Shown here: piece after piece, positions 12,120-59,169 of the stretch
How the letters are laid out: each line of letters opens with the position of its first letter
How positions within the stretch are numbered: the stretch's first letter is position 1
Program-made: the position numbers and the translations under genes
Notes under the pieces: model-generated
The model's database searches: none
What the model saw: the letters and a program-made list of their open reading frames with translations, nothing else
Told to the model about the DNA's origin: nothing
Origin: Acidilobaceae archaeon
Lineage (GTDB): Archaea > Thermoproteota > Thermoprotei_A > Sulfolobales > Acidilobaceae
Direction: 5' to 3'
Length of the DNA stretch: 63,957 nucleotides
Assembly: GCA_027051095.1 (NCBI GenBank)
Contig: JALUAM010000021.1
Span: 1 to 63,957 of the forward strand

Positions 12120-13091
12120 CTACAGGGACCCCTCTGCCGCCTCGTAGCCCTCTGACCCAAAGTGGTGGGCATTAGTTAGGGCACCCCTCTTGTTCCTGCA
12201 TATCAGCGACTTGAACAGCTTGAGGGCGATTTCGGGGGCAGGCCTGGAGGAGCTGGTAGCCCTGTCAACCTCTATTATCATGTGTTCGTCGTCGTCGGTG
12301 AGCCCGTAGGACTTGCTCTTTATTATGCCATCGTCGGGATCAACGGGTATAGTCTCCATGAATGCTATAGCCCCCGAGTTGCCGAGGTCTAATATGCCGC
12401 CGACAAGCACCATGGGGACGCCTAGTTCCCTAGACCTAGCAACGAGGAAGTTGCCTATGAAGCTGGTATCCATGGTTATGACATTATCGCCCTGCTCTAC
12501 TATCCTGCCGAGGGTGTCGCTGTTGTAAGGCATCATCTCGCCTATCACTATGTTCACGCCGTGGAACTGCATGGCTCTGAAAAGCTCTGGGAGGGCTAGG
12601 TCCTCGTCTATGAATACCCCTACGCTGAAGCCGTCTCTAAGCTTGAAGACGCCGGGCTCCTTGCCGTGGCTTATACCAGCTTCTACCTCCTCCCTGGTCA
12701 GGTTGACCTTCCGATACTTACCCACTATGTCGCCCTCCGGCGAGGTGATAACCGTTGTAAGGTAGAGGCGGGGCCCAGCCCTCTCAACGAGGGGCCCCCC
12801 GAGCACGTAGACGCCGTACTCCCAGCTCCACTTAGCCATGAAGTTGACGGCAGGCCCCACGGAGCCGCTCCTCTCAGCGATCTTCTCCGCGAACTCCCTG
12901 AGCTTGGAGGCGATCTTCGATTTGCTGTAGTAGCCTATTATAGGCCCTGTAAATGGGTATGAGGGGAGAACAATCATGTCTATGGGCCCGGGGACGTCGC
13001 TCATAACCTTCTCGATAAGGTTGCCAAGCCTCCTTATATTGCTCCTCTTAGCGCCCATCTTCACCTTGGCGTGAAGCACCACTATCCTCAA
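12120..13091 (-). CDS. Nitrilase-fold (carbon-nitrogen hydrolase) protein lacking catalytic residues
   Basis: A 323-residue protein with the overall nitrilase-superfamily pattern. The usual Glu of the first motif is Ser (IVLPSYPFTG, Ser44), the catalytic Lys is kept (GKYRKVNL, Lys128), and the nucleophile Cys is replaced by Asp (SVGVFIDEDLALPEL, Asp162). It is therefore probably not an amidase; a binding or scaffold role is likelier. It starts at TTG 13091, overlapping the stop codon of the giant reverse gyrase by 4 bp, so the two are very likely co-translated. The function of the pair is unknown. Confidence 0.72.
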   Translation of the reverse strand: MRIVVLHAKVKMGAKRSNIRRLGNLIEKVMSDVPGPIDMIVLPSYPFTGPIIGYYSKSKIASKLREFAEKIAERSGSVGPAVNFMAKWSWEYGVYVLGGPLVERAGPRLYLTTVITSPEGDIVGKYRKVNLTREEVEAGISHGKEPGVFKLRDGFSVGVFIDEDLALPELFRAMQFHGVNIVIGEMMPYNSDTLGRIVEQGDNVITMDTSFIGNFLVARSRELGVPMVLVGGILDLGNSGAIAFMETIPVDPDDGIIKSKSYGLTDDDEHMIIEVDRATSSSRPAPEIALKLFKSLICRNKRGALTNAHHFGSEGYEAAEGSL

Positions 13092-16000
13092 CCACCCTCA
13101 CCCCCCTCTACCGGCCTCCTGACGAGGCCCCTCACCACGCAGTCGACGAAGTCTGCAATCCAGCCCGAGCCCCACCTACCCTCCCGACTCTTACCCCCCT
13201 CGAGGTTTATAGGAGCGGAAGCCCTGAGCGCCTCGACTTCTGCATGCGCTATCAGCTCCGCCAGGTCCTTAATCTCTCCGTAAACGGCTAGTAGCACATC
13301 TCTCCTATCCCTCTCACGCCTCTCAATAGCGTTCATAGCCTCCTGTAGCTCCCGCGTTTTCCTCTCGGACACGATGTAGGGTATAGTCTTGAATATCTCC
13401 GCGATCCTCGGGTCCAGGCTCTCTCCAAGGTGCTCCTCTGGCCTAGCGACTTTCTCGTTGAGATAAGTGCAGGCCTCAATGCCCCTCTTATTGGCTACTA
13501 GCGAGCCCGGAGGCTTGTCAAGGCTTGACACGTAGCCTCTACTAAGCAGGGTATCTATTATTTTAGCGTAGGTGCTAGGCCTTCCTATGCCCTCAGCCTT
13601 CATCTTCTGGACTACGTCGCCCTGGGTGTAGAGGAATGCTACCGGTATTCTAAGCCTTTTCACGAGGACCGGCATGTCGTATCTCTTGCCGGGCTCAGCG
13701 TCGGCTAGAGCCTCGGCCACGTTGAGCCCATAGTTCCACACTAGGGTGAAGCCCCTCTCAGGGTCTATCTCGCCGCCTTGCCCGCCGACCCTGACAGGCA
13801 CTTCCACCTCAAAAGATAGGTTGTAGAGCATGTCGTCCAGCTGTATTCTAACCCTTGCATAGTAGACTTTAGCCTCTCTCATCTGGCTTGCCAGGAACCT
13901 CTCGTATATTAACCTGTAGAGCCTTAGATGGTTGCCGGTGAATCCTTCAAGCTCTAGCTCGCCTTCCTGGATCATCCTCTGCAGCTCGTCGGGATCTATG
14001 GGCCTCGCAGGCCTAATGGCCTCATGGGCCCCACCCTCCTCCCAGGTCCTAGGCCTGAAGACGTCCTCTAGCCTGAAGCCGGCCTTGTCGGCGAGCCTGG
14101 AGAGGAGCTCCCTGGCGACTTGAATCCCCTTATCGCTAACCCGCCTAGAGTCAGTCCTGTGGTAAGTTATGAGGCCCCACTCGAAGAGATCCTGAGCTAG
14201 CCTCATAGTCTCGGACGCGCTGAGCCTAAGGTAGCGGTTAGCGTCTAGTATTAATGTATCGGTTGTGTAGGGGCTTGGAGGCTCCACAGTCCTCTCATAG
14301 ACGTCTTCTACTATTATGTACGCCCTGGACGGGACGCCTAGATTCTTAATTCTCTCCTTGAGCTTCGCCGCTATCTCGGCCAGGCTGCTAGTGTCGTCCA
14401 GGCTGCAATCAAGCTTCACGGCCAGGTCTCTGACCGCTTCGTGGCTCTTCGGAAGAATCTTTTCGACCTCGCTGCACGCCTTTGAGACTTTAGTTTTGCT
14501 AGTATTCCTAGCTATGGAGTCTAAGTTCTTGAGTAGGGCCTTCTCTCTGTCTCCATAGGCCTTAACTACTTCGTCATCGACGAATCTACTATCTAGTATT
14601 ATGGAGTAGCGCTGGCCCTCGCCAACGACGAAATAGCTGTGACCCAGGGGCCCTCTCTTAGCCTTCTCAGCGTCTAGGTTGAACGAGTACTCTCCAGGCA
14701 TGTATTTCTCCCTGATCATGCACGCAAGCAGGTGTTGCTCGTCCTCCCCCCGGCTCTCGGCGGCCTCTAGGCACTTATCCAGCCCCTCTCTTTCAGCGAC
14801 GTCCCTTAGTAGCTCGAAGCTTATCTCTCTCGGCTGGGAGGGAAGACCGCAGAGGTCTAGCTTGGAGCTGTTGCGGGTGGCTGCTAGACTGTAACGGCCG
14901 CTACCGCCTAGTATCAGCTCCACGGCCTTGTCAACCCTTGAAGGCCTTATCAAGAGCTGTAGCAGGGGCTGCACGTCTAGTTCCTTGGACTCCCTGAGCC
15001 TCTCGACAGCCTCGGAAAGCGACTCAGGGGTGTAGATGTTTACCTCCAGCGCGTTGAAGCGCCTTTTAGCCATCTGAGTCCTATTAACTATCCACTTGAG
15101 CGTGGGGGTCTGGACCCTGCCGGCGCTCAAATTGTAGTTGGGAGTGCTAGCCCTCTCACCGCTATCACCCTTAGCAGCCGTTCTACACCTTCTCAAGTCC
15201 ATGTAAGCGGCGTAGGTGAGCCTTTCCTCCGCCTCGCCCTCAAGCTCCTCCCTGCGCATCGGCACGCCGAGTACTGTACTAGTTAAAGTCGTGCAGTAGT
15301 GGGGCCAGAAGTTGCACCACAGCAGGGGCGATAGAGTGAATCCTATCCACCTATCCTCTACCCTCCTAACAACTTGGGCGTCGACTAATGAGAGGTTGAA
15401 TCTCCTCGGGTTCTCTAGGGCATGTATTATAGCCTTCTTGGTGACCTCATGGAACTCAAGCCTGACATAGTTGTTGTTGAAGGGTATCAGGGAGAGCAGG
15501 ACGTCCCACCCTATCTTCTCTCCCTCTGTGTCAGGGTCTGTGCCGATCATGACCTCGTCGGCCTCCCATGCAAGCCGCCTGAGGTCCTCGAGCGTGTCAA
15601 GTGAGTCCCGCACGCTGCCCCAATGGCAAGCCTTTCTAGGGCAGCAGAGGTCCTCGCCGCATAGGCTGTCGGAGGAGCCTCCCCCCACGTGCTCGTCTAC
15701 GAACTGGTAGCCGCAGGGGACGCACCTCTTCCTAGTAGTATACACTGGTATGAAATCTAAGGCACCGTTCCTCGAGATCTTCAGCACGCCGAAGAGGTCT
15801 CCAAGCACTCTCCCTATCTCCTCCTCGGCGATCCTCGCTAGGGCAAGGTCCTCGGCCAGCTCGTAGAAGCTCTTGGCTAAGTCATATACGTGGCCGCCGC
15901 TCGCGGCAACTATCAGTATTCTATCGCCAGTAGCCACCTCGTAGACCCTCAAGCCGCCGGGCAGTATCCTGATGCTGGGCTGCCCGAAGAAGCGTGCTAT

Positions 16001-18757
16001 CGTCCTGGCCTTATTCGGCGACTCCACTATGACTAGCGTGCTCCTGACAAGATCCTCCTCGAGCCTGACGCCCTTCTCCCTCAGCTCCTTGACCCTCCTC
16101 CTCTCATCCTCTATCTCTCTGACAATGTCGGCTAGCCGCCCACCATCTAACAGCCACTCGCCTCTCTCCTTGCGGAGTTCCTTCCACTCCGTCTCGATCA
16201 TCGGCTTCAGCCTTGACACGAGGCCCTTGAAGACGCCCCTTTCGCCGGGCCCCACAACAACTACGCTGAGGCCCTTAGTGACGCCCCCCGCGTAGAGCCT
16301 GCTGGTCCTGCCACTAGCCTGCACATAGGTGGGGGCATCAGGCACAAGGAGGACAGGCCTCCCGTTCTCCACAGTAACGCCAACATCTAGGCTCTTCAGG
16401 GCCTCCCAGACATAGCTCCTCTGAAGGGCCCTCTTGACGAGGAAGAATGACGAGAGTATCAGGCTTAGGACCTGCGCTCCAGGCACCCTACCCTTAGCGC
16501 CGCCCTCCCCGCCCTTAAGCCCCTCCACTATGCTCCTGATCTTCTCGCTGAACTCGTCGGGCGACTCGTAGTAAGCCTGTTCTAGACCGCGGTGCTCTTC
16601 AATTATCCTCTTAGCCCACTCGGTTATCTCTCTTAGCCTGTGGGGGCTAGTCTCCCTGACGAGCCTTGCCAGCCTGGCGCGGTACCTCCTCGCGGCGGCA
16701 GCAATCTCCTCCAGCTCCCGGGCCTCAGCCTCGGATACATCTTTGGGCGGGGCTGTCTGGGCTAGCAGGGAGAGTAGCCTAAGGAGCCTCGCGGGGTGAG
16801 GGTCTCCCACGTCGCTCGTGAACTTGTGCTTGGGGACCCCAGCGAATATCGCGTACTTTGCCCTAGTCGGCATGTCGAGGCCTCTGACCAGGAGGCCGTA
16901 GTACGTCGCCACGCCGACTAGAACGTTAAGCTTCTCATCCTTGAAGTCGTTCAAGATCCTCTCGTACTCCCTGGCGCTAATGCCAGCATGTACAGCCCTG
17001 ACCTTAACCCCTTCTACGTGACTCTCTATAAGCGAGGCTAGCTCCTCAGCCGCCTCGGCCCCCTCATCGAGGGGCACGTAGACTAGCACTCCGTCTCTTA
17101 GCTTGGACACCAGTTCCACTACAACCCTGAACACGGGATTCTTTATGTCCCTAAACCTCTCTTCAACGTAGACTTTCTCTGCTTCGACGAACGAGTCTAC
17201 AACCTCCCTGAGCCCGATGTCGCCCCCGCCCCCGGCCTCGAAGCCCAGCAGCACCCTGAATAGGCGTACCCGCCTGCCGCGCGGCCTTCCAGTAGCAGTG
17301 CTAACTATAAGTGTAGAGGCTCTAGACCTGGCCTCAGCTATCTCACTTTCAAGCCTAGCAAGCTCCTTTTTGATGCCCACGAGTCTTTCAATTAACTCGC
17401 GCCTTCTCTCCTCGTACGAGTCTAACACTCTCCTAACATCATCTATGTCGCTACAATACTTGTTTATCTTATCGGATATATCTTTAGCATCCCTAGCTTT
17501 CATGTTCTTAATGGCCTCTCGGAGGAGACTGTCGCCTTTACTCAATTCAGAGCATAGACGGTAAGGATTCAATACAGCCTCATCTAGTATTTCCTTCAGC
17601 TTGTGGTCAACCTTACCGGCGCTTCTGTAAATCCGGACTGGTATGCGGCTTAGCTTGCTCTCGATGTTTCTAATCTCTCGTAGCCTCGACCTAATATCCT
17701 TCGAAAGAGCCATTATCCTGTTCTCGAGCCTGTTCCTCTCCCTAGAGAGTTCTAAGTACCTCTCAGCCCTTTCCAGGTCCTCCGGCTTGAACCCGGCGAG
17801 TCTCAGTATGGCGTCGACGCTCTTAGCGCTCTTAATGACTGCGTCCACGTCGTCGGCAAAGACTAGCCTCAGCCTGATACCCCTGGAGGCGAGGCTGTCG
17901 GCTATCTCATCGGCCTTCTTGGTCATATACGCTGAAGTTATTATAGCGATATCGAAGGAGCCCTCCATTAGCCTTCTATCAGCCTCCTCCCTCTCCTCCT
18001 TCCTGAGAGCGCCGAACCTGCGCACAATTGTTACATTACAGCCCGTCGCCTTAGCTATAGCATCTATCTTCTCGGAGAGGTTCGAGGCTAAGGTAGTCGT
18101 GGGCACTATGAATAGGCTCTTGCCCTTACCCTTGCAGGCGAAGTATACTGCCATGACTGCACCAAACGTCGTCTTCCCCGTGCCGGTCGGCGCTATGATG
18201 CTAAAGCTATCCCCTCTAACTATCCTCTTAATCCAGGTTCTCTGGGCACCCCAGGGCTTAGACCCGATGGCCTTCTCAAAGAACGACACAGCGTCCTCGT
18301 ACTCCTTGTGAAGCCTGTATATCTCCTCGTAGCGTTTAAGCCTGGATTTACATAGGTCTAATACCCTTTCTAAGAGGTTGGGCCCGTCTTCCACCCCGTA
18401 CCTAGCGGCAATCGACTTAGCTACCTCTACTGCCTCATCGATCTCGCCCTTGCCTGCGAGCTTCTCAAGCCTGTTGCAGAGGCCTATAACCCCGTTCCTG
18501 CCCGCGAGAGCCTTGTAAACCGCCTCCACAGGGATCTTCTCGCCGTACTTCTTGACTAAGCTCACAGCCTGCTTGTATGGGAGGCATCTAGGGCACGGGA
18601 GCCCGTAGTAGAGCCTTGAATCTGTGTTAGAGAATCCGCAGTTAGGGCAGGAGTACCTGTAAATCCCCTTGACATCATTCAAGGAAGGAGGATTATAGTA
18701 ACCCTCTTCCTCTACTCCCCGTTTAACGGTTTCAAGCGCCTCCATAGGCTTAGACAA
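13088..18757 (-). CDS. Reverse gyrase, giant form of 1889 residues
   Basis: All functional parts are visible: N-terminal zinc finger (Cys37, 40, 55, 58), helicase Walker A (APTGTGKT, 189-196), Walker B DDVD (302-305), STATGRPRG (486-494), Toprim VESP (Glu912), second zinc finger (Cys1012, 1015 and later cysteines), DPDTEGE (1074-1080) and the nicking tyrosine in GLITYHRTDS (Tyr1532). It is about 670 residues longer than the copy at 36273. Extra sequence lies at about 330-480 (coiled-coil-like helices), 650-760, 1150-1205 and 1240-1475 in the topoisomerase gate. It introduces positive supercoils using ATP. It starts at TTG 18757 (or ATG 18745) and its stop overlaps the next gene. Confidence 0.95.
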   Translation of the reverse strand: MSKPMEALETVKRGVEEEGYYNPPSLNDVKGIYRYSCPNCGFSNTDSRLYYGLPCPRCLPYKQAVSLVKKYGEKIPVEAVYKALAGRNGVIGLCNRLEKLAGKGEIDEAVEVAKSIAARYGVEDGPNLLERVLDLCKSRLKRYEEIYRLHKEYEDAVSFFEKAIGSKPWGAQRTWIKRIVRGDSFSIIAPTGTGKTTFGAVMAVYFACKGKGKSLFIVPTTTLASNLSEKIDAIAKATGCNVTIVRRFGALRKEEREEADRRLMEGSFDIAIITSAYMTKKADEIADSLASRGIRLRLVFADDVDAVIKSAKSVDAILRLAGFKPEDLERAERYLELSRERNRLENRIMALSKDIRSRLREIRNIESKLSRIPVRIYRSAGKVDHKLKEILDEAVLNPYRLCSELSKGDSLLREAIKNMKARDAKDISDKINKYCSDIDDVRRVLDSYEERRRELIERLVGIKKELARLESEIAEARSRASTLIVSTATGRPRGRRVRLFRVLLGFEAGGGGDIGLREVVDSFVEAEKVYVEERFRDIKNPVFRVVVELVSKLRDGVLVYVPLDEGAEAAEELASLIESHVEGVKVRAVHAGISAREYERILNDFKDEKLNVLVGVATYYGLLVRGLDMPTRAKYAIFAGVPKHKFTSDVGDPHPARLLRLLSLLAQTAPPKDVSEAEARELEEIAAAARRYRARLARLVRETSPHRLREITEWAKRIIEEHRGLEQAYYESPDEFSEKIRSIVEGLKGGEGGAKGRVPGAQVLSLILSSFFLVKRALQRSYVWEALKSLDVGVTVENGRPVLLVPDAPTYVQASGRTSRLYAGGVTKGLSVVVVGPGERGVFKGLVSRLKPMIETEWKELRKERGEWLLDGGRLADIVREIEDERRRVKELREKGVRLEEDLVRSTLVIVESPNKARTIARFFGQPSIRILPGGLRVYEVATGDRILIVAASGGHVYDLAKSFYELAEDLALARIAEEEIGRVLGDLFGVLKISRNGALDFIPVYTTRKRCVPCGYQFVDEHVGGGSSDSLCGEDLCCPRKACHWGSVRDSLDTLEDLRRLAWEADEVMIGTDPDTEGEKIGWDVLLSLIPFNNNYVRLEFHEVTKKAIIHALENPRRFNLSLVDAQVVRRVEDRWIGFTLSPLLWCNFWPHYCTTLTSTVLGVPMRREELEGEAEERLTYAAYMDLRRCRTAAKGDSGERASTPNYNLSAGRVQTPTLKWIVNRTQMAKRRFNALEVNIYTPESLSEAVERLRESKELDVQPLLQLLIRPSRVDKAVELILGGSGRYSLAATRNSSKLDLCGLPSQPREISFELLRDVAEREGLDKCLEAAESRGEDEQHLLACMIREKYMPGEYSFNLDAEKAKRGPLGHSYFVVGEGQRYSIILDSRFVDDEVVKAYGDREKALLKNLDSIARNTSKTKVSKACSEVEKILPKSHEAVRDLAVKLDCSLDDTSSLAEIAAKLKERIKNLGVPSRAYIIVEDVYERTVEPPSPYTTDTLILDANRYLRLSASETMRLAQDLFEWGLITYHRTDSRRVSDKGIQVARELLSRLADKAGFRLEDVFRPRTWEEGGAHEAIRPARPIDPDELQRMIQEGELELEGFTGNHLRLYRLIYERFLASQMREAKVYYARVRIQLDDMLYNLSFEVEVPVRVGGQGGEIDPERGFTLVWNYGLNVAEALADAEPGKRYDMPVLVKRLRIPVAFLYTQGDVVQKMKAEGIGRPSTYAKIIDTLLSRGYVSSLDKPPGSLVANKRGIEACTYLNEKVARPEEHLGESLDPRIAEIFKTIPYIVSERKTRELQEAMNAIERRERDRRDVLLAVYGEIKDLAELIAHAEVEALRASAPINLEGGKSREGRWGSGWIADFVDCVVRGLVRRPVEGGEGG

Positions 18758-36272: not shown

Positions 36273-39200
36273 ATGCAGGTGAGCATCGCCGTGAAGGAGA
36301 TAATGGGCGTCTACAGGGGCTTCTGCCCTAACTGCAGAGGCGCTGTGAGCGAGGAGAGGCTGCTGGAAGGGCTGCCATGTGATAGGTGCCTCCCGCGGCC
36401 TGTAGGAGGCGGTTTGGAGCGGATAGCCCGCTTCCTACTTAAACGTGGCAGGCTCATGGGGTTCTACTGGATTTGGAGCCTACAGCGCGAGCTGGCGGAG
36501 TTCGAGAGATTCTTCGAGGAGCGGGTGGGCCTTAGACTGTGGAGCGCGCAGAGGAGCTGGGCGAAGAGGCTTCTCAGAAGGGAGAGTCTAGCGATAATAG
36601 CTCCCACAGGCGTGGGCAAGTCAACCCTCCTCAGCGCCTACGCTGCTTACCGCGCCGAGACGGGGGGCTGGAGGGTCCTTTACCTGGTGCCGACGGAGAA
36701 CCTTGTGAGGCAGGCGTATGAGAGGATATCGTCCATTTCGAGGGGCAGGGTAGTGTACTACTCTTCCAGGCTCTCGGAGAGGCTCAGGTCGGAAGCTCTC
36801 GAGGCCATACGATCCGGGGGCCCAGGCGTATACATAGTCACGACGGGCTTCCTCTCCAGGAGGTACGAGTACCTACGCTCGGGGGGCAAGTTCGAGCTTG
36901 TCATAGTAGACGACGTTGACAGCCTGTTAAGGTCGAGCAGGAACGTTGAGAGAGTGCTAGCCCTTCTGGGCTTCCCCGACGACTTAATTGTGTCAGCGCT
37001 GAAGCTAGTAGAGTTTAAGTTGAAGCTGTATAGGGCGTTGGCGTCAGGGTCGAGGAGGGTAGAGGATCTTCAAGTGCGTGTGGCCGAGCTTGAGGAAGCT
37101 GTGAGAAGGGGTTTAAGCTCCCTAGGCTCCCAGGGCCAGCTGGTCATAGCCAGCGCTACGGGCAGGCCTCGAGGCTATAAGCACCTGGTGTTCAGGGAGC
37201 TACTCGACTTCGAGGTGGGCGGCGGAAGCGACTATCTGAGGAACATACTGGACTCGTACCTGATCTGCAGTGATCCGTATAAGTGCCTGGTGGATGTTAC
37301 CGAGGACCTGGGCGACGGCGTCATAGTTTTCGTGTCGCAGAGACACGGCAAGGAGGCCGCTAGGAGGCTGGCCGGCGAGCTGGAGGCGAGGGGTCTCAGG
37401 GTAGCCCTCGCTTTAACAGGCTCCCGTAGGCCCCTAGAGATGTTCGCGTCGGGGAAGGTGCAGGCTCTGGTCGGGGTTGCCAGCAGGTACGGCGTGATAG
37501 TCAGAGGCATTGACCTGCCTCAGAGAGCCAAGTATGCGCTCTTCCTGGGAGCCCCCGGCGTGAGGCTCAGGATTGAGGAGGCGCTGCTAAACCCTCGAAG
37601 ACTGCTGAGGATACTAGACTACGCTGCCTCCCAGGGCGTGGAGCGGGCCTCCCTCTACTACGAGAGGCTTAGGCACATCGTTGAGAGACTGCCTGACCCC
37701 TCTCTCGTACCCGCGGCTGCTAAGGGGAAGCTTAGAGCCGAGGGCCTGCTCACAGAGGCTGCCAAGCTAGTCAAGGAGGCATCCGAGGTTGCGAGCAGCT
37801 GGCTACTAGAAGAGGCTAAGGCCCGGGGGGGAGTGCTCCGCGTTGGGGGCATAGTGGTAGAGTCTTGGGGATACGTCGTTGTGCCTGACGCGCTGACCTA
37901 CATACAGGCTAGTGGGAGGACGAGTAGGCTCTACAAGGGCGTCATGACGTTCGGCCTCAGCGTGGTGGTTGACTCTAGCGAGGAGTACGTTGAGGCTCTC
38001 TGGGAGAAGCTTAGATGGTCGACGGGCACTATATTCACGCCGTTCCACAAGGTCGAGATAGGGGAGGTTAAGCGTAGGGTAGAGGAGTCGAGGAGGGGTA
38101 AGGGCAGGAAGATCAACGTTAAAACAGTGCTACTCGTAGTAGAGTCGCCTGCGAAGGCTAGGACTATAGCGTGGTTCTGGGGGAGGCCTGGCAGAAGGAG
38201 GGTTGGAGGCCTCACAGTCTATGAGACGAGCGTTGCGGACGAGCCTACAGGCACGGTATATATAATCAACGTTACAGCTACCAGGGGCCATATAACCGAC
38301 CTTGCGGTGGACGTCGACGACTCGATGTATGGTGTGAAGGCGTCCAAGAGGGGCTACACGCCAGTCTACGACTCTATTAAACGCTGTAAGGAGTGTGGAT
38401 GGCAGTTCACGTCATCGTCTAGGGTGTGCCCCCGCTGCGGCTCCAGCCGGGTAGTTGATAGCATGGCGGTGGTGGACCTTCTGCGTAAGCTGGCGGTCGA
38501 GGTTGACGAGATAGTAGTAGCCTCCGACCCCGACAGAGAGGGCGAGAAGATAGCCTGGGACGTGTACCTCGCCGTTAAACCTTACAACCCCAACGTGAAG
38601 AGGGGGCGTTTCCACGAGGTAACGCCCAAGGCGGTTCTTGAAGCGCTCCGTAGCGCGGGCAGCTTCGACGAGAGGCTCGTGGAGGCCCAGGAGGCTAGGA
38701 GGATCGTCGATAGGTGGATAGGGTTCAGCCTAAGCGAGCATCTCTGGGCGGTATACGGCAAAACGTGGCTAGGCGCAGGCAGGGTTCAAACGCCGGTGCT
38801 CGGGTGGATCGTCGGAGCCTATGAGAAGTGGAAGGCTAGCAGAGGCTACTATGCCGTGCTGAAGCTGGAGAACGGCGCTAGGGTCTCCGTTTTCAGCGAG
38901 AGCAGGGAGAAGGCCGAGGAGGTCGCGTCTACCGGCTACGTGGAGGTCGTTAAGGTGGAGTCTGTGTGGGAGGAGAGGCAGCCACAGCCGCCTTTCACCA
39001 CGGATTCAATGCTCTACGAGGCCTCTAGCAGGCTGGGCCTAGGGGCGTCGACGGCCATGAGGCTCGCGCAGGACCTCTTTGAGTGGGGCCTGATAACTTA
39101 TCATAGAACAGACTCGACCAGAGTGAGCCCGGCAGGGATATCAATAGCGGCCGAGTGGCTTCAGAGGAAGGGCATGGAAGGCCTCTTCAAGCCCAGGGGG

Positions 39201-39926
39201 TGGGGCGAGGGGGGCGCCCACGAAGCTATAAGGCCTACGAGGCCGCTGGACGCCTCAGAGCTGGAGAAGGCTGTGCTAGACGGCTCTATTAGGGTGCCGG
39301 GCAGGCTAACTAGGATGCACCTAGCACTCTACGACTTAATATTCAGGAGGTTCGTGGCCAGCCAGATGAGCCCTGGAAGGCTGTTAGTAGTCAGGGCCGT
39401 CCTCAGGGCTTCATCGGCCGAGATAGAGGTTGAAGGTGTAGCGGCGGCTTCAGGAGGCTTCACCAGAGTCTACACGCCTAGGCTATCCGAGTGGCTCTCA
39501 AGCTTAAAGCCTGGCTACAGGGTAAGGGTCGTCGAGGGCAAAGTGGTAAAAGGTAGCAGGGAGAGGCTGCTCAGGAGCGGCGATGTGGTTAAAATGATGA
39601 GGGACCATGGGATAGGGAGGCCGAGTACCTATGCGAAGGCGATAGAAGCCAATATAAGGCATGGCTACGTGGTGGAGAGCAAGAAGCGGAGGTATCTGGT
39701 GCCTACCAGGCTCGGCATAGAGGTGTACAGATACCTGTCAACAGGGTTCCCAGAGCTGGTCTCGGTCGAGACCAGCAGGAGGCTGGAAGAGGAGCTGGAC
39801 CTGGTGGAGAGGAGGCTGAAAAGCCCCACGGCCATGCTGTCAGAGGCCTGGAAGCTCATAGAGGAGAAGCTGGAGGCGGCGAGGACCGTGGAAGGTCGGG
39901 TAGAGGCTGGGGAGGCTGCAGGCTAA
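36273..39926 (+). CDS. Reverse gyrase, normal-size form of 1217 residues
   Basis: Complete reverse gyrase: first zinc finger (Cys18, 21, 36, 39), Walker A (APTGVGKS, 110-117), DDVD (213-216), SATGRPRG, Toprim VESP (Glu624), second zinc finger (CKECGW...CPRC), DPDREGE (Asp752, Asp754, Glu756) and the nicking tyrosine Tyr943 in GLITYHRTDS. It adds positive supercoils using ATP, a hallmark of hyperthermophiles. ATG start; a TATA-like ggtttaagct (36255-36264) is close upstream, so the mRNA is probably leaderless. The other copy, at 13088-18757, is much longer. Confidence 0.97.
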   Translation: MQVSIAVKEIMGVYRGFCPNCRGAVSEERLLEGLPCDRCLPRPVGGGLERIARFLLKRGRLMGFYWIWSLQRELAEFERFFEERVGLRLWSAQRSWAKRLLRRESLAIIAPTGVGKSTLLSAYAAYRAETGGWRVLYLVPTENLVRQAYERISSISRGRVVYYSSRLSERLRSEALEAIRSGGPGVYIVTTGFLSRRYEYLRSGGKFELVIVDDVDSLLRSSRNVERVLALLGFPDDLIVSALKLVEFKLKLYRALASGSRRVEDLQVRVAELEEAVRRGLSSLGSQGQLVIASATGRPRGYKHLVFRELLDFEVGGGSDYLRNILDSYLICSDPYKCLVDVTEDLGDGVIVFVSQRHGKEAARRLAGELEARGLRVALALTGSRRPLEMFASGKVQALVGVASRYGVIVRGIDLPQRAKYALFLGAPGVRLRIEEALLNPRRLLRILDYAASQGVERASLYYERLRHIVERLPDPSLVPAAAKGKLRAEGLLTEAAKLVKEASEVASSWLLEEAKARGGVLRVGGIVVESWGYVVVPDALTYIQASGRTSRLYKGVMTFGLSVVVDSSEEYVEALWEKLRWSTGTIFTPFHKVEIGEVKRRVEESRRGKGRKINVKTVLLVVESPAKARTIAWFWGRPGRRRVGGLTVYETSVADEPTGTVYIINVTATRGHITDLAVDVDDSMYGVKASKRGYTPVYDSIKRCKECGWQFTSSSRVCPRCGSSRVVDSMAVVDLLRKLAVEVDEIVVASDPDREGEKIAWDVYLAVKPYNPNVKRGRFHEVTPKAVLEALRSAGSFDERLVEAQEARRIVDRWIGFSLSEHLWAVYGKTWLGAGRVQTPVLGWIVGAYEKWKASRGYYAVLKLENGARVSVFSESREKAEEVASTGYVEVVKVESVWEERQPQPPFTTDSMLYEASSRLGLGASTAMRLAQDLFEWGLITYHRTDSTRVSPAGISIAAEWLQRKGMEGLFKPRGWGEGGAHEAIRPTRPLDASELEKAVLDGSIRVPGRLTRMHLALYDLIFRRFVASQMSPGRLLVVRAVLRASSAEIEVEGVAAASGGFTRVYTPRLSEWLSSLKPGYRVRVVEGKVVKGSRERLLRSGDVVKMMRDHGIGRPSTYAKAIEANIRHGYVVESKKRRYLVPTRLGIEVYRYLSTGFPELVSVETSRRLEEELDLVERRLKSPTAMLSEAWKLIEEKLEAARTVEGRVEAGEAAG

Positions 39927-52966: not shown

Positions 52967-55720
52967 TTGGCTGCTAGGTCCTCGGCGCTGGCAGCGCTAT
53001 TCTTAATAGTATTGGTAGTAATGGCTTCGGTGTCTGCATCATCCGACCCTGAAGCCCCCCTCGCGGCGTCGCAGCAAACTGCGGCGGGGCCGGGCATCGC
53101 CGCCATCCAATCCTCCAGGCCCGCGTCGCTCGGCATAGAGCCTGCTGTAGTGTACGGCGAGGGCTCCCGGGTTTATGTGGCCCCGTGGAGCCTCGACGGG
53201 AAGGCATGGCCCGTGCCTGCGGGTTGGCCCGCCCTAGCCTCTTGGAGTGGGCTGGCGCTGGCTGTAGCGGGATCGGAGGCGGTGGCGCTACTATCCCCAG
53301 GTCCTTGGGGCGGCTTGTCGTGGACCCTCTATATGGGGCACGGCATTTCCGGGGCGAAGCCTGTGCAGGTCGCTGCTAGCGGGTTATCTGTGGCCGCGTT
53401 ATACGAGGGCCCGGGAGTCTATGTGGCATCCCTCCACGCCGACGACATCTGGGGGACTTCCGGGATAGGGGTCGTGATTGAGCTGTCCTCGCGGCCCATA
53501 GCAGTGGCTGTCAGGCAGGCTACCGTGTACGTCGCATTCGAGGAGAGGGGAGATCTTCTCGTATATGGCGTCGAATGGGTGTCAGGCGCTGTAGAGGCCT
53601 GGCTGCTCGACGCGGGCTGGGTAGAGTGGGCGTGCCCCGTCAGCGGCTCGCCACCCTCGATACTCGCTGGGGGCGGGGGCCTGGTAGCCTGGGTAGACCT
53701 TGAGCGGCTGGAGGCGGCGGTGTATAAGCTGGGCGGCTATGAGGGATGCCTTAACGCCTATTCCGAGGGCGATACCCTTTCGGCTCTGCTGAAGGGGCCC
53801 TCAGGCGGCTCGCTGGTATTCCTCTACAGGAACGGCCCTGCTGCGGTTTACGATATTATTATGACTGAAGGCTTCAGGGCGTCGTACATAGCATCGAGCG
53901 GAGGGAGCGTAGCGCTCGGCCTGGAAGGAGGCGGCTGGAGTCTGGCGGTGTATGGCGAACCTAGGTCGTGGGGATCCCTTTCAATAATCACTCCTGAGGG
54001 GATAGTGGTGGCCGAGGCGCTCTGGAGGGGCACCAGAGAGTTCTTTACAGGCGTTTCCGGGCTGAAGCCTATCGAGGCTGACGCCAGCATAATAGAGGCC
54101 GTATCGTTCGGCCAGGGGAAGGCCGATATCCTAGAGGCCGAGTGCTGCGCCCCGGTAGCGGGGGCCCTCTCAGCTAGCCCCGACTTCGCTATGCCGGCCG
54201 CAGTGGCTCTACGCTTCTTTCACGAGGCGCTGGAAGCGGCTAGAAGGGAGTTGCTGACACTGGCTGTCAGGCTGGGAGAGATCGACATTGATAAGGCTAT
54301 AGGCGCCCTGGAGGTCCTAGCTGCCGCGCCCCACGAGGCCTCAGTGCACGCCGTCAGAGCGCTGACCCTGCTGGAATCCTCTAGTAGCTGGCAGGACGCA
54401 GTCGTCAAAGCTCACTCTCTAGTACTTTCAGCCTCAGGGGTAGCCGATTACTCTTCGCCCGCGGGCTCTTATCTCAAGCCGACCGCGGCGATGGAGCTAG
54501 TAGTCTCTTCCGAGCCCGACTCACTGCTAGCGTTGTCGGCCTTAGCAGACTCCCAGAGGCTTGCTTTAAGCCCCGCGCTAACCCGCGACCCCTCGTTGCC
54601 CTCGAGGCTTATGGTAGAGCTAGTGTCTAATTCCGAAGGGGTGGAGGGCCTAGACGACTTCATAGCACTCGTGAACGGCCTTCCGGGCCTCGACGCTGGC
54701 GCCGGCGTGGAACTGCTGCCCTGGGTCGCCCCCCTAGCGTTTAGAGGGCTTCTCATGGAGGCGGCCGCGGGGCTGGCCCTCTCAGCTGCATACGAGAGGG
54801 CGCTCAGCCTGGCATCGCTGGCTTCTTCGCTAGCCTCAGGCGACCCCCCTGAAGGGCTGCCTGGTGCGTGCGCGGTAATAGGCCCCCTGGGAGGCAATGC
54901 GCTCCCATACGTTTCGCGGTACGACGCCTTAAACATAGATCTCCACAGGACGGTTCTCTCGGGACACGAGGTCCTGGTCGACTGCGGTGGCAGTGTCTTT
55001 AAGGAGAGAGTGCCGCCAGCCTATTACATACCGCTCCTGACTAGGATAGGGATGGTAGAGAGCAGCGGCTACGTCTTCATGGTTGCTGAAGCCCTGATAG
55101 ATGGTCAGGCAGTTCCCAGGCTTCTAGCGTCAATAGCGTCAGATAGTCCTCCCGGGAGAGACGAGTGGCTGATCACAATCTGGGAGGTCTCCTCGGGGGA
55201 ACTGCCGATGATAGCAGCCTCTAAGAGCGGGTCCAGAGTGGTAGCCGCGGTTTATGCTGGCGGGTATAAGCTCTACCTGGGCGAGCTGCAGAGGTTGAGC
55301 GAGCTCGACTACGTGATAATAGCGTCTACCTCCGGCGCTGTAGAGGGGGGCGAGAGGCTCATTCCGGTTAAACCTCCAGGAGCCTCTGCCGTCCTAGTCA
55401 AGGAAGGATCTATAGTCTCGGTCAAAGGCGAAGCGGTGGCGATCCTTCAGTTGCAGGACTCAGTCACTGTTATTAGACTGACCGAAGGCTCTTACATGGC
55501 TCGGGCCGGCTACCCGCCTAGAGCGATAGAAACGATGGGTGGCGCTGAGGAGCAGGATCCCAAACCCGCCGGTGACGGGCTGAGCGGTCGAGGCGACGAG
55601 GTCCAAGGCGTGGAGCAGAGAACTTGGGACGCATTGCAACCATTAATAATTGCGTTAACCGTTTTAGCAGCGGCCACCACAGCGGCAATACTATTGGCAT
55701 ATTATAAAAAGAGGCGTTAG
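52967..55720 (+). CDS. Large surface protein with signal peptide and C-terminal membrane anchor, function unknown
   Basis: A 917-residue protein with an N-terminal signal (SSALAALFLIVLVVMASVSA) and a C-terminal span (PLIIALTVLAAATTAAILLAYY) followed by KKRR, so most of it faces outside. The first 400 residues are rich in short strands with Trp/Tyr/Gly turns, like a beta propeller; the middle (about 410-640) is helical, Ala/Leu-rich; then beta again. Only a few cysteines. I do not recognise a family. It starts at TTG 52967, 26 bp after ribC, but is probably functionally unrelated. Confidence 0.65.
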   Translation: MAARSSALAALFLIVLVVMASVSASSDPEAPLAASQQTAAGPGIAAIQSSRPASLGIEPAVVYGEGSRVYVAPWSLDGKAWPVPAGWPALASWSGLALAVAGSEAVALLSPGPWGGLSWTLYMGHGISGAKPVQVAASGLSVAALYEGPGVYVASLHADDIWGTSGIGVVIELSSRPIAVAVRQATVYVAFEERGDLLVYGVEWVSGAVEAWLLDAGWVEWACPVSGSPPSILAGGGGLVAWVDLERLEAAVYKLGGYEGCLNAYSEGDTLSALLKGPSGGSLVFLYRNGPAAVYDIIMTEGFRASYIASSGGSVALGLEGGGWSLAVYGEPRSWGSLSIITPEGIVVAEALWRGTREFFTGVSGLKPIEADASIIEAVSFGQGKADILEAECCAPVAGALSASPDFAMPAAVALRFFHEALEAARRELLTLAVRLGEIDIDKAIGALEVLAAAPHEASVHAVRALTLLESSSSWQDAVVKAHSLVLSASGVADYSSPAGSYLKPTAAMELVVSSEPDSLLALSALADSQRLALSPALTRDPSLPSRLMVELVSNSEGVEGLDDFIALVNGLPGLDAGAGVELLPWVAPLAFRGLLMEAAAGLALSAAYERALSLASLASSLASGDPPEGLPGACAVIGPLGGNALPYVSRYDALNIDLHRTVLSGHEVLVDCGGSVFKERVPPAYYIPLLTRIGMVESSGYVFMVAEALIDGQAVPRLLASIASDSPPGRDEWLITIWEVSSGELPMIAASKSGSRVVAAVYAGGYKLYLGELQRLSELDYVIIASTSGAVEGGERLIPVKPPGASAVLVKEGSIVSVKGEAVAILQLQDSVTVIRLTEGSYMARAGYPPRAIETMGGAEEQDPKPAGDGLSGRGDEVQGVEQRTWDALQPLIIALTVLAAATTAAILLAYYKKRR

Positions 55721-55780: not shown

Positions 55781-55936
55781 TTATGCCCTAGCGGGCGCGG
55801 AAACCTTCTCGAGCCTGTTCATATATTTTACCCTGTTCTTAAGTCTCGGGTGGTAGTTCTTCTTGTTCTTGGGCTCAATCCTGGGCGTCTGCTTCCTCAC
55901 CTTGCCAGCCTTTGTTAGGCTGCCGTGGGTGCCCAT
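55781..55936 (-). CDS. rps30e: Small ribosomal subunit protein eS30
   Basis: A 51-residue basic protein starting [20 protein letters not shown] and continuing to [15 protein letters not shown], which is the archaeal/eukaryotic eS30 pattern. It binds near the shoulder of the 30S subunit. ATG 55936 is preceded by a GGAGGGG-type site, and the stop is at 55781-55783. It is a stand-alone gene convergent with the large surface-protein gene. Confidence 0.93.
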
Positions 55937-56063: not shown

Positions 56064-56078
56064 TTAAATCTAATTTAA
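56064..56078 (+). promoter_or_regulatory. Promoter palindrome of the first CARF regulator gene
   Basis: TTAAAT (56064-56069) and ATTTAA (56073-56078) form a perfect inverted repeat with a 3-bp spacer that itself contains TATA-like sequence. It is about 40 bp before the ATG at 56117, right for a promoter, and its symmetry suggests autoregulation. I see nothing else recognisable in 55937-56116. Confidence 0.45.
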
Positions 56079-56116
56079 ATCACAGGATTTACTGATAGAT
56101 TTCTGGCCGATGAAGC

Positions 56117-56812
56117 ATGGCTGAGGAGAGAAGGATAGTCATGGTTGCTGGGGTCGGCGTTAACGTCGATTTTATTGCGAGGAGGATTCATGAACTGGGC
56201 AGTGGCGCTATAGGAAAGGTGATGCTTGTTGGGCTTGAAACGGGCGACCCTGGAGAGTCAGCTAGGGTAGCCCAGGCTAGAGAGCTTTTGCTGAACTACT
56301 TGCACTCGCTAGGCATAAATAATACCTTTGTAACTGTGAGCGCGGGTCAAGGTATAGTAAGGGAAGTGAAGAGGGTGATCCTGGAGGCTCGAAGGGAGGC
56401 TGAGAAGCTAAGGGCTGGAATAGTAGAGGTGTTCCTCGGAGGGGGGCCTAAGGCGCTCACCGCGGCAATGACCATAGCGGCTATAATTGTCGAAGCAGAG
56501 GCGTACTATGAGCGTGAGGCGAGAAGGATTGCCAGCAGGCTTGTGATCCAGGGCGAAGGCCTAGAGAAGCCCCTGGTAATAGATGTAAGCGTGCTTTACA
56601 GGCTTCTCAGCCTCGACGAGCTGTCGTGGAGTATAGTGAGGGAGCTGCTAACGGAGAGAAGCGTCAAGGAGCTGCTAAAGAAGCTGAGAATACCTAAGAG
56701 CACACTCTACAAGAAGCTTAACGAGCTTAAATCTAAGGGGCTCATAGAGCCCTCGCCCCGGGGGCGGGGCTACTGGGGGCTGAGTAGCCAGGCGGGGATG
56801 CTCCTTAACTAG
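56117..56812 (+). CDS. CARF domain plus winged-helix regulator (Csa3-like), first copy
   Basis: A 231-residue protein with a Rossmann-like CARF domain and a C-terminal winged helix. In the CARF part a phosphate-binding-type loop is visible (VEVFLGGGPKALTAAMTIAAIIV, about residues 95-117). The helix-turn-helix SVKELLKKLRIPKSTLYKKLNELKSKGLIEP spans about residues 188-218. Such proteins sense cyclic oligoadenylate and regulate cas genes or CRISPR arrays in Crenarchaea. It is just upstream of cas6, with a second such gene after it. No array or other cas gene is in the window. Confidence 0.82.
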   Translation: MAEERRIVMVAGVGVNVDFIARRIHELGSGAIGKVMLVGLETGDPGESARVAQARELLLNYLHSLGINNTFVTVSAGQGIVREVKRVILEARREAEKLRAGIVEVFLGGGPKALTAAMTIAAIIVEAEAYYEREARRIASRLVIQGEGLEKPLVIDVSVLYRLLSLDELSWSIVRELLTERSVKELLKKLRIPKSTLYKKLNELKSKGLIEPSPRGRGYWGLSSQAGMLLN

Positions 56813-56844
56813 CCAGCTTAAGTCGGCTTAGTAAGGCCTTTCGG

Positions 56845-56869
56845 CTCCACCCGGGTTTTATAGGTGGAG
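56845..56869 (+). promoter_or_regulatory. cas6 promoter with TATA box inside an inverted repeat
   Basis: CTCCACC (56845-56851) and GGTGGAG (56863-56869) are perfect complements flanking the TATA box (ggttttatag, 56854-56863). Transcription would start near 56885, ten bases before the ATG at 56895. A dimeric regulator bound here would block TBP; the flanking CARF-wHTH proteins are the obvious candidates. Confidence 0.6.
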
Positions 56870-56894
56870 GCCCCACCGAGGGTGCCACATTGTA

Positions 56895-57833
56895 ATGAAT
56901 TGGGTGCCGCGCCAGCTGCTCAGGCTGGGGGAGGCACGCGGGTACCTCTCGCTGGTGAGATTCGCACTCATACCACTCGAAGATGTGGTTCTACCTCCCT
57001 TCACATCGACCGTGATGAAGGCTATAATGCTCAGGGCTGAGTGCATGGAGCAGCTGGCCTGGCTTTATAGGCTGCGCGAGGCTAGCAGGCCGATAACGGT
57101 GAGAGTCCTTAAAACCCAGGATGGGAGGCCTCTCTACACAGTGACAGGCTCCCGCGGGGAGCTAGCAGTTAGGAGGGGCGAGAAGCTCATAGGAGAAGTC
57201 GGATTCCACGTTCTCCCCGAGTCAACTCCTATCTTCCCCGAGTCTGAGTGCCTCGGAGAGACTGTTAGGCTTGGAGGGGCCGCGTTTAGGGTATTCACGC
57301 TAGAGGCTGACACCGCGGAGGTGAGTAGCCTCGGGTCATCGCCGCCCGAGAGAATAGTAGTCGAACTCGTCACCCCAACAGCCATCCCCATTAAGCTGCT
57401 GGCTTCGAGCCTATCCAGGAGGCTCGTTAACTCTGCGAAGGCCTACAGGTTGCTCCCCACGCCAGGCTACATCCTAGGCGAGGCTGCAAGGCAGATGGCT
57501 TTGACTGTGATGGGCTCGACACCCGAGGAGGCTGCTAGAGCTGGGAGAAGGGTGGCGCTCCTAATGGACCCCCTCGTAGCAGAGGTGGACTTTAACCTGC
57601 GCCCTGTGACGGCGGTTTACGCTAGGCGCAAGCGGGTCAGAGGCGTAGTGGGCAGGCTTGTCCTGGAACCCCTTAGCGCTAGGATCGCGCCCCAGGTGTG
57701 GGGGCTTCTCAGGCTAGCGAGCTTCCTGGGGCTAGGTAAGAGCAGGGCGTTAGGCTTCGGCGAGGTGAAGGTTTCCAGGTCTAGGGGCAGGATCTCGGGC
57801 GGAGTTAAAAGGGGTGGCTTGGACGCGGGTTAA
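56895..57833 (+). CDS. cas6: CRISPR repeat endoribonuclease Cas6
   Basis: A 312-residue RAMP protein that follows the crenarchaeal Cas6 pattern: FALIPLEDVVLPPFTSTVMKAIML in the first ferredoxin-like domain, VELVTPTAIPIKLL in the middle, LLPTPGYILGEAAR, KRVRGVVGRLVLEP, and the hallmark C-terminal Gly-rich loop ASFLGLGKSRALGFGEVKV (about residues 277-295). Cas6 cuts CRISPR repeats to make crRNAs; catalytic residues vary and cannot be named here. ATG 56895 follows a TATA box inside an inverted repeat. It lies between two CARF-wHTH genes with no interference genes nearby. Confidence 0.9.
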   Translation: MNWVPRQLLRLGEARGYLSLVRFALIPLEDVVLPPFTSTVMKAIMLRAECMEQLAWLYRLREASRPITVRVLKTQDGRPLYTVTGSRGELAVRRGEKLIGEVGFHVLPESTPIFPESECLGETVRLGGAAFRVFTLEADTAEVSSLGSSPPERIVVELVTPTAIPIKLLASSLSRRLVNSAKAYRLLPTPGYILGEAARQMALTVMGSTPEEAARAGRRVALLMDPLVAEVDFNLRPVTAVYARRKRVRGVVGRLVLEPLSARIAPQVWGLLRLASFLGLGKSRALGFGEVKVSRSRGRISGGVKRGGLDAG

Positions 57834-57839
57834 ACCCGC
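57825..57839 (+). promoter_or_regulatory. 15-bp palindrome before the second CARF regulator gene
   Basis: GCGGGTT-A-AACCCGC is a perfect palindrome that includes the cas6 stop codon and lies 31 bp before the GTG of the next gene; its ttaaa centre could also serve as a TATA box. The first 14 bases are identical to the palindrome at the liv promoter (34060-34073, minus strand). Confidence 0.55.
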
Positions 57840-57869
57840 TTCTCGCCTAAGACTCGCAGGGCCCGGATC

Positions 57870-58553
57870 GTGGGGAGGCTACTGGCCTTCACGCTGGGCT
57901 TCACGGAAAGCTACGCCCTCAGAAGACTCGCTAAAATGAGGGCAGACGGGAAGGACTACGTAATAGTATTCACAATCGAGCCTGTCGTGGGCGCGGCTAA
58001 GGAGGCATTCAATGCCCTCAAGACCATGGCGGCTAAGATGGGGGTGGTCAACGTTGAAATGGAACCCCTGCCCCAGGGAGACTTGAGCAAGGCGATCTCG
58101 AAGGCGCTATTCAAGCTACGGGTCTTCGCCCAGTCAGGCTACACGCCGGTTCACGTGGATGTCACGGGCGGCTCGCGTTACATAGTCTCCGCGCTCGTGA
58201 TAGCAACGCTAATGCTGAGAGGGTTTGAAAGGTACCTATGGATAGCCAGCGACACGGGCGAAGACTGGGACACACACATAAATCTATCCGAATTCGATAA
58301 GATATACTGCAATCCTCTGAGGAAGGAGCACGAGAGGATACTCCATTACCTAGCCTCGAAGGGCAAAGGCGCTACTACAAGGGAGATAGCGGAGGCCCTC
58401 AGCTTGTCAGAGAAGACGGTGAAGAACAGGGTTAGCGAGCTAAAGAAGCTAGGCCTCTGCGCTCAGCCTGGCAGAGGGGAGGAGGTAACTATAACGCCCT
58501 GGGGGGAGGCCGTTCTCATATCCCAGTTAACCCGGCCCAGGACGCCCCGGTAG
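57870..58553 (+). CDS. csa3: CARF domain plus winged-helix regulator (Csa3-like), second copy
   Basis: A 227-residue protein closer to classic Csa3. The CARF part opens with LLAFTLGFTESYALRRLAKM and has the ligand motif VHVDVTGGSRYIVSALVIATLML (about residues 91-113). The winged helix (ILHYLASKGKGATTREIAEALSLSEKTVKNRVSELKKLGL) is at about 152-191. Csa3 proteins activate CRISPR adaptation or array genes in Sulfolobus. It starts at GTG 57870, 36 bp after cas6, probably in the same unit or from a promoter over the palindrome at 57825. Confidence 0.9.
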   Translation: MGRLLAFTLGFTESYALRRLAKMRADGKDYVIVFTIEPVVGAAKEAFNALKTMAAKMGVVNVEMEPLPQGDLSKAISKALFKLRVFAQSGYTPVHVDVTGGSRYIVSALVIATLMLRGFERYLWIASDTGEDWDTHINLSEFDKIYCNPLRKEHERILHYLASKGKGATTREIAEALSLSEKTVKNRVSELKKLGLCAQPGRGEEVTITPWGEAVLISQLTRPRTPR

Positions 58554-58569: not shown

Positions 58570-59169
58570 TTGAGGGTGGGCCTTGCTGTCCTGGCGGCCG
58601 GCTCAGGTTCAAGGGCGGGCGGGTGCAAGCAGGCGAGGAGGCTGTGCGGTAGGCCGCTCTTAGAATGGAGTCTTAGGGCTGGCCTCGGCGTAGACGCGGA
58701 TATAAGGCTTGTAGTGGTGGGCGCCTGCCTCTGCGCTTTGGGCCGTGTAGAGCCTCGGGTGCTAGCGGCCTATAGGGTCGTGTTCAACCCATGGTGGAGG
58801 GAGGGAATGGCCTCCTCTGTCAGGATCGCCGCTTCAACGCTGCTAAGCGAGGGCGTTGACGCCGCGCTAATAATTCACGGCGATATGCCGCTGGTGAGCC
58901 CGGGGCTCCTTTCGAGGCTCCTTGAGACCGTGAGGAGCGGCGCCGAAGCGGCTTACACCTCTCATCGAGGTGTGAGGGGGCCGCCGGCGGCTTTCAGGGG
59001 CAGAGTACTGCGTTTAATGATTAATCTTAGGGGTGATAGGGGCCCCGGGGCCCTTTGGGGCAAACTCAGGGCTGCACTAGTAGAGCCCGCGAGCCCCGAG
59101 GAGATCATGGATGTGGACACCTTGGAGGACTTTGAGAGGGTCACTAGACTCCTGTGCAACCGCATTTAA
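58570..59169 (+). CDS. MocA/MobA-like nucleotidyltransferase
   Basis: A 199-residue sugar/cofactor nucleotidyltransferase with the signature LAAGSGSRAGGCKQARRLCGRPLLEW near the start, the metal-binding IIHGDMPLVS, SHRGVRGPPAAF and the late MDVDTLEDFE. Best guess is CTP:molybdopterin cytidylyltransferase (MocA) or a related MobA-type enzyme. It starts at TTG 58570, 16 bp after csa3, on the same strand, though a functional link with CRISPR is unlikely. Confidence 0.78.
   Translation: MRVGLAVLAAGSGSRAGGCKQARRLCGRPLLEWSLRAGLGVDADIRLVVVGACLCALGRVEPRVLAAYRVVFNPWWREGMASSVRIAASTLLSEGVDAALIIHGDMPLVSPGLLSRLLETVRSGAEAAYTSHRGVRGPPAAFRGRVLRLMINLRGDRGPGALWGKLRAALVEPASPEEIMDVDTLEDFERVTRLLCNRI

Follow-up and report, generated by a model that had tools for sequence, protein, structure and literature searches.

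What does a cas6 gene do when it stands between two regulator genes and away from every other component of a CRISPR-Cas system? This question is raised by a csa3-cas6-csa3 block, with all three genes on the plus strand, at positions 56117–58553 of a contig from an Acidilobaceae draft genome belonging to Aeropyrum (1.43 Mb in 76 contigs, 82.6% complete). The DNA analyzed here, which we call the window, is 63,957 nucleotides long and makes up the entire contig (C21). An earlier note, made from the sequence alone, had suggested either a detached crRNA-processing unit under cyclic oligoadenylate (cOA) control or a Cas6 repurposed for other RNAs.

A Cas6 between two Csa3 regulators at a housekeeping position

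The central protein matched the Pfam families Cas6_N (1e-12) and CRISPR_Cas6 (9e-10), both above cut-off, as well as PADLOC Cas6a (3e-29) and, among PDB sequences, Sulfolobus Cas6 3zfv (1e-17) and 4ill (2e-16). Its structural model (pLDDT 81) matched Sulfolobus Cas6 4ilm/4ill with an E-value of ~1e-22 and a TM-score to the target of 0.81. It has the RAMP (ferredoxin-like) architecture of the crenarchaeal Cas6-1/Cas6a type, and the C-terminal Gly-rich loop, GLGKSRALGFGE, is intact. The right neighbor matched Csa3_N (7e-20) and a winged helix, scored above the NCBIfam Csa3 cut-off and matched Csa3 in the PDB (E 1e-14). The left neighbor missed the NCBIfam cut-off by about 6 bits (54.5 versus 60.2 bits) and matched PADLOC CARF3 at 1e-35; the structures closest to its model (pLDDT 90) were Sulfolobus Csa3 2wte and the cA4-bound 6wxq. 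We consider the family evidence strong for Cas6 and the right Csa3, and good for the left Csa3. Both flanking genes were also confirmed, eS30 by a Ribosomal_S30 match (1e-13) and the other as a MocA-like NTP transferase (Table 1).

The earlier note had recognized Cas6 from its Gly-rich loop and RAMP pattern, placed it between two CARF-winged-helix regulators and regarded the eS30 and MocA flanks as housekeeping genes. The open reading frames, profile matches and fold matches bear this description out, with domain matches supporting the right regulator and PADLOC and structural matches the left one. Its statement that no array, effector or adaptation genes surround the block holds for the 64-kb contig as a whole: we found no other cas gene in the window and no CRISPR array or repeat-like sequence, and csa5, cas7, cas5, cas8a, cas3′ and cas3″, none of which is present there, sit on another contig (C47).

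Table 1. Positions in the window of the three block genes, the flanking genes and the candidate promoter elements.
Feature	Position	Strand	Description
left csa3	56117..56812	+	231 aa; CARF + winged helix; interference-linked clade; F10→V, R98→K
cas6	56895..57833	+	312 aa; crenarchaeal type; Gly-rich loop intact
right csa3	57870..58553	+	227 aa; CARF + winged helix; adaptation-linked clade
ribosomal protein eS30	55781..55936	-	flanking, outside the unit; marks a conserved chromosomal position
MocA-like nucleotidyltransferase	58570..59169	+	flanking, outside the unit; 16 bases past the right csa3
TTTTATA	56856..56862	+	candidate archaeal TATA box, from reading the sequence only; ~35 bases upstream of the cas6 start
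TTTAAAT	56074..56080	+	putative archaeal TATA box; ~40 bases upstream of the left csa3 start

The gap between cas6 and the right csa3 is 36 bases; these two genes are likely co-transcribed, and the MocA-like gene is perhaps co-transcribed with the right csa3. A sigma-70 and terminator scan gave nothing above shuffled sequences, such scans being ill-suited to archaea.

Elsewhere in the window there are two reverse gyrase genes, one at 13091–18757 on the minus strand (1888 aa) and one at 36273–39923 on the plus strand (1217 aa). The longer protein has extra stretches compared with the second, at about residues 1150–1483 and in the helicase part, which are possibly inteins or large inserts. A gene at 52967–55717 (plus strand) encodes a 917-aa protein with a signal-like start, a C-terminal membrane segment and no Pfam match; it adjoins the block in a second Aeropyrum species (G002) too, with 43% identity.

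The Cas6 active site and the position of the block proteins in the Cas6 tree

Work on the Sso Cas6 found Lys28 to be all but essential, with effects of 10-fold or more for Lys25, Lys51 and Arg231/232 (PMC3652601). Three of the four equivalent positions are basic in the block protein: Lys28 corresponds to K42, Lys51 to R65 and Arg232 to a basic Lys. The Lys25 position is non-basic in both block Cas6 proteins, T39 here and Ala in G002, and is Lys or Arg in 21 of the 22 other Cas6 proteins in the alignment. Since K42, R65 and a basic residue at the Arg232 position are kept and Lys25 is lost, the block Cas6 is likely active, and its activity may be altered. Arg replaces the near-essential Lys28 in the Cas6 of two other genomes, G011 and G013 (loci L037, 15940–16872, and L010).

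In a quick tree of 24 Cas6 proteins, with SH-aLRT as its only support measure, the two block proteins were sisters (support of 100) inside a group of type I-A Cas6 proteins of the same family. Their nearest relatives were the proteins of G005 and G003, and the stem leading to the block pair was long (0.99 changes per site).

The two regulators fall into separate Csa3 clades

A tree of 24 Csa3 proteins, likewise quick and with SH-aLRT support only, grouped the right Csa3 with Csa3 proteins of adaptation cassettes (99%) and the left Csa3 with those of type I-A interference operons (98%). As the two lie in separate clades, the block unites cas6 with one regulator per module. The earlier note had remarked on two different regulators around one nuclease, and the clade assignment makes that case stronger than originally claimed. 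Csa3a of S. islandicus is an activator of adaptation genes and arrays, and Csa3b of the same species is a repressor of adaptation and type I-A genes (PMC7480081).

Binding of cA4 by the Sso Csa3 requires Phe10, Phe14, Gly96 and Arg98 (PMC8844856). At these positions the right Csa3 has F, Y, G and R, and the G9 equivalent is also kept. The left Csa3 has V, F, G and K, two ligand residues being changed, and its counterpart in G002 has F, F, G and R. Upstream of the block, the type I-A operon on C47 and the G002 block we found no convincing shared palindromes or words, nor an operator motif common to the block and the type I-A operon.

The block is conserved in a second Aeropyrum species

We compared five other genomes of the genus, including G002, G003, G004 and G005, of which G003 and G004 are complete. 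G002 carries the same three genes in the same place, with the eS30 and MocA neighbors, at 44–69% protein identity. Synonymous sites are saturated (pS ~0.7–0.8), dN is 0.23–0.54 and the three frames are intact in both species, which indicates that the block is under purifying selection. A stop in the match to the G002 Cas6 falls at its C-terminal end and leaves an intact frame of 301 residues. The G002 block comes from an independent assembly, and the block studied here is not at a contig end. The earlier note had proposed conservation in relatives as a check, and the block passes it in G002.

We did not find the block in G003, G004 or G005, where all Cas6 and Csa3 matches lie elsewhere; because the MocA locus of G003 and the window show no synteny, this absence rests on the genome-wide Cas6 and Csa3 searches. 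Among 25 tabulated Cas6 loci, most cas6 genes lie in or end a type I-A operon, or lie beside an adaptation cassette or array, and csa3-cas6-csa3 alone occurs only in the G002 copy of the block. No fossils of the genes from csa5 to cas3″ were detected between csa3 and cas6 in either species. G002 carries an operonic Cas6 in addition to the block Cas6 (C44, C46), and the three array contigs read from this genome share one repeat, GAATCCATAAAATGGAATTGAAAG. No type III genes were found in G002.

The remaining CRISPR-Cas genes of the draft lie on other contigs

A search of the rest of the genome for arrays and cas genes, another check that the earlier note had called for, revealed an array, a type I-A operon and a partial csm operon, each on a different contig. 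By both the Pfam model and protein search, the cas6 gene in the window is the sole one found in its own draft. Contig C47 carries a complete type I-A interference operon, csa3-csa5-cas7-cas5-cas8a-cas3′-cas3″, without cas6. The operon stops at cas3″ and an unrelated open reading frame follows, so it is assembled beyond its 3′ end.

The array, on contig C52, has 27 identical 24-nt repeats, GAATCCATGAAATGGAATTGAAAG, and spacers of 38–58 nt, and is surrounded by housekeeping genes and tRNAs. The repeat can form a 5-bp TCCAT/ATGGA hairpin (-3.3 kcal/mol, not clearly better than shuffles) followed by 8 nt, ATTGAAAG; an 8-nt tail of this kind is the usual form of a crRNA handle. The spacers gave zero matches to phage records.

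Contig C65 carries csm3-csm4-csm5-cas10 (type III-A), with only the first 668 residues of Cas10, and the operon ends at the contig end. A search for palm2 (Cas10 cyclase) gave no match in the draft, the cyclase part being absent from the assembly. From this search we had taken the view that the genome has no type III system and hence no cOA, and we dropped it when a RAMP search found csm3–5 and the cut Cas10. The csm operon (C65, 799–9113) has genes for an archaeal phage integrase and a resolvase nearby and may sit on an integrated element; no cas6 was seen with it.

Contig C31 (6794–8115) carries an orphan csa3 whose ligand motifs are altered (GS, TEGPA), together with a cas4, next to the same metallo-hydrolase gene that precedes csa3-csa5 in G002. 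This pair looks like a decayed locus at the site where the type I-A operon of G002 starts. Cas1 was not found in the draft and is present in all four near-complete congeners. The draft, at 82.6% completeness, may lack a second Cas6 or a Cas1, and the missing 17% may explain why no Cas1 was found.

Discussion

We consider it likely, with some reservation, that the block is a stand-alone crRNA-processing unit that acts in trans and possibly serves two effectors. The detached unit envisaged by the earlier note is well supported by an array, a cas6-less type I-A operon and a partial csm operon elsewhere in a genome where no second Cas6 was found, and its two different regulators stand as well; repurposing for other RNAs is not required to explain the block. 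In the favored reading, Cas6 would be produced separately from the effectors and would cleave the transcript of the C52 array. The cut would fall at the base of the hairpin and leave the 8-nt handle, with AUUGAAAG as the crRNA 5′ handle; we propose GAAUCCAUGAAAUGGAAUUGAAAG as a candidate substrate of the block Cas6, to be cut 8 nt from its 3′ end. The type I-A complex, and probably the Csm complex too, would take up the freed crRNAs, and the two Csa3 proteins would control how the block, the distant cas operons or both are transcribed. The block probably derives from a fuller type I-A locus, from which genes around cas6 would have been lost or departed, and would then have been retained by selection.

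A separate Cas6 in common use is already known from Sulfolobales, and the array, the csm operon and the type I-A operon without cas6 would fit this. The Cas6 of Sulfolobus acts by itself and with multiple turnover, with differing repeat specificities (PMC4041471), and in archaeal type I-A systems cas6 is often transcribed apart, consistent with products common to several effectors (PMC4390879). Counting against the favored reading, both block Cas6 proteins lack the basic Lys25 residue, and Sulfolobus Cas6 deprived of it was slower by a factor of at least 10 (PMC3652601); in addition, the draft is incomplete, the Csm operon is seen in part only and no common operator motif was found. Since G002 has an operonic Cas6 and no type III genes were found in it, effector sharing is not the sole reason why the block persists.

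Three other explanations have to be weighed. The absent 17% of the draft could hold a cas6 and an adaptation cassette, which would make the block a redundant extra copy. The number of contigs, the contig end that cuts the csm operon and the lack of Cas1 compared with its congeners all speak for this, but the assembly extends past the 3′ end of the type I-A operon without showing a cas6, and the block lies away from the contig end and is reproduced in the independent G002 assembly; we judge this explanation improbable. About as improbable, in our view, is that the block Cas6 has taken on a new role, cutting non-CRISPR RNAs or regulating rather than making crRNA. Processing of a non-CRISPR RNA is known for one Sulfolobus Cas6 (PMC4041471), and the long stem of the block pair, the Thr or Ala at the Lys25 position and the operonic Cas6 retained in G002 could be read in the same way; yet the genome offers no other Cas6 for its array, the Lys28, Lys51 and Gly-loop positions are retained and the window has no repeat-like sequence.

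We give least credence to the block being the leftover of a lost type I-A locus that does little now. Deleting the effector genes of a G003-like operon would produce just this order of interference-type csa3 and cas6, another apparent relic exists on C31, where G002 has csa3-csa5, and two ligand residues are gone from the left Csa3. Against this stand three intact frames in two species with dN well under saturated dS, the absence of fossils of the missing genes among the three, and the position of this cas6 as the only one found in a genome with an intact array and effector. We conclude that the block is real, conserved and probably functional.

Cyclic-oligoadenylate control of the block is possible, judging from the residues of its regulators, and the Cas10 fragment makes a cA4 source in the genome plausible. 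The right Csa3 keeps the cA4 residues, the left Csa3 carries F10V and R98K, and the G002 block occurs in a genome where no type III genes were found. A more elaborate scheme, which we hold to be unlikely, would make the block a signal-gated hub of crRNA supply: cA4 from Csm/Cas10 would raise or lower Cas6 through the adaptation-clade Csa3, detection by the type III system would in this way tune the guide pool of the cas6-less type I-A system, and the second Csa3 would be a ligand-independent arm.

The block shares its Cas6 group and its two Csa3 clades with type I-A operons that have a terminal cas6 and csa3 (G003, G005 and G017; S. islandicus), and in G003, G005 and G017 both Csa3 genes lie near one type I-A locus. 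Unlike these operons, it lacks csa5, cas7, cas5, cas8a, cas3′ and cas3″; its cas6 directly follows the interference-type csa3, and the adaptation-type csa3 lies downstream on the same strand. In G034, G011, G021 and G044, cas6 also adjoins an adaptation-clade csa3, and in G034 this pair and the interference operon lie on separate contigs, as with the block. There, however, cas4-cas2-cas1-csa1 lie directly beside the pair, whereas the block has no adaptation gene nearby. Cas6 of S. islandicus REY15A and Cas6-1 of S. solfataricus feed several effectors and are not integral Cascade subunits (PMC4390879, PMC4041471); the block, whose Cas6 may do likewise, differs in that its gene lies away from all cas operons and is flanked by two regulators. 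Sulfolobus Csa3a and Csa3b likewise form a pair of CARF-wHTH regulators, the one associated with adaptation genes and the other with interference genes (PMC7480081, PMC8844856), but in the block the pair brackets cas6 alone, and its left member is without two residues that the Sso Csa3 needs for cA4. The compact dual-regulator layout is new or at least unusual.

The block is a clean natural example of guide-RNA processing set apart from the genes for memory and attack and standing next to one regulator of each branch. If these regulators act on the block cas6, crRNA processing would be a regulated step linking two effector types. It is also a compact system in which to test which Csa3 clade controls what, free of the confusion of a shared operon.
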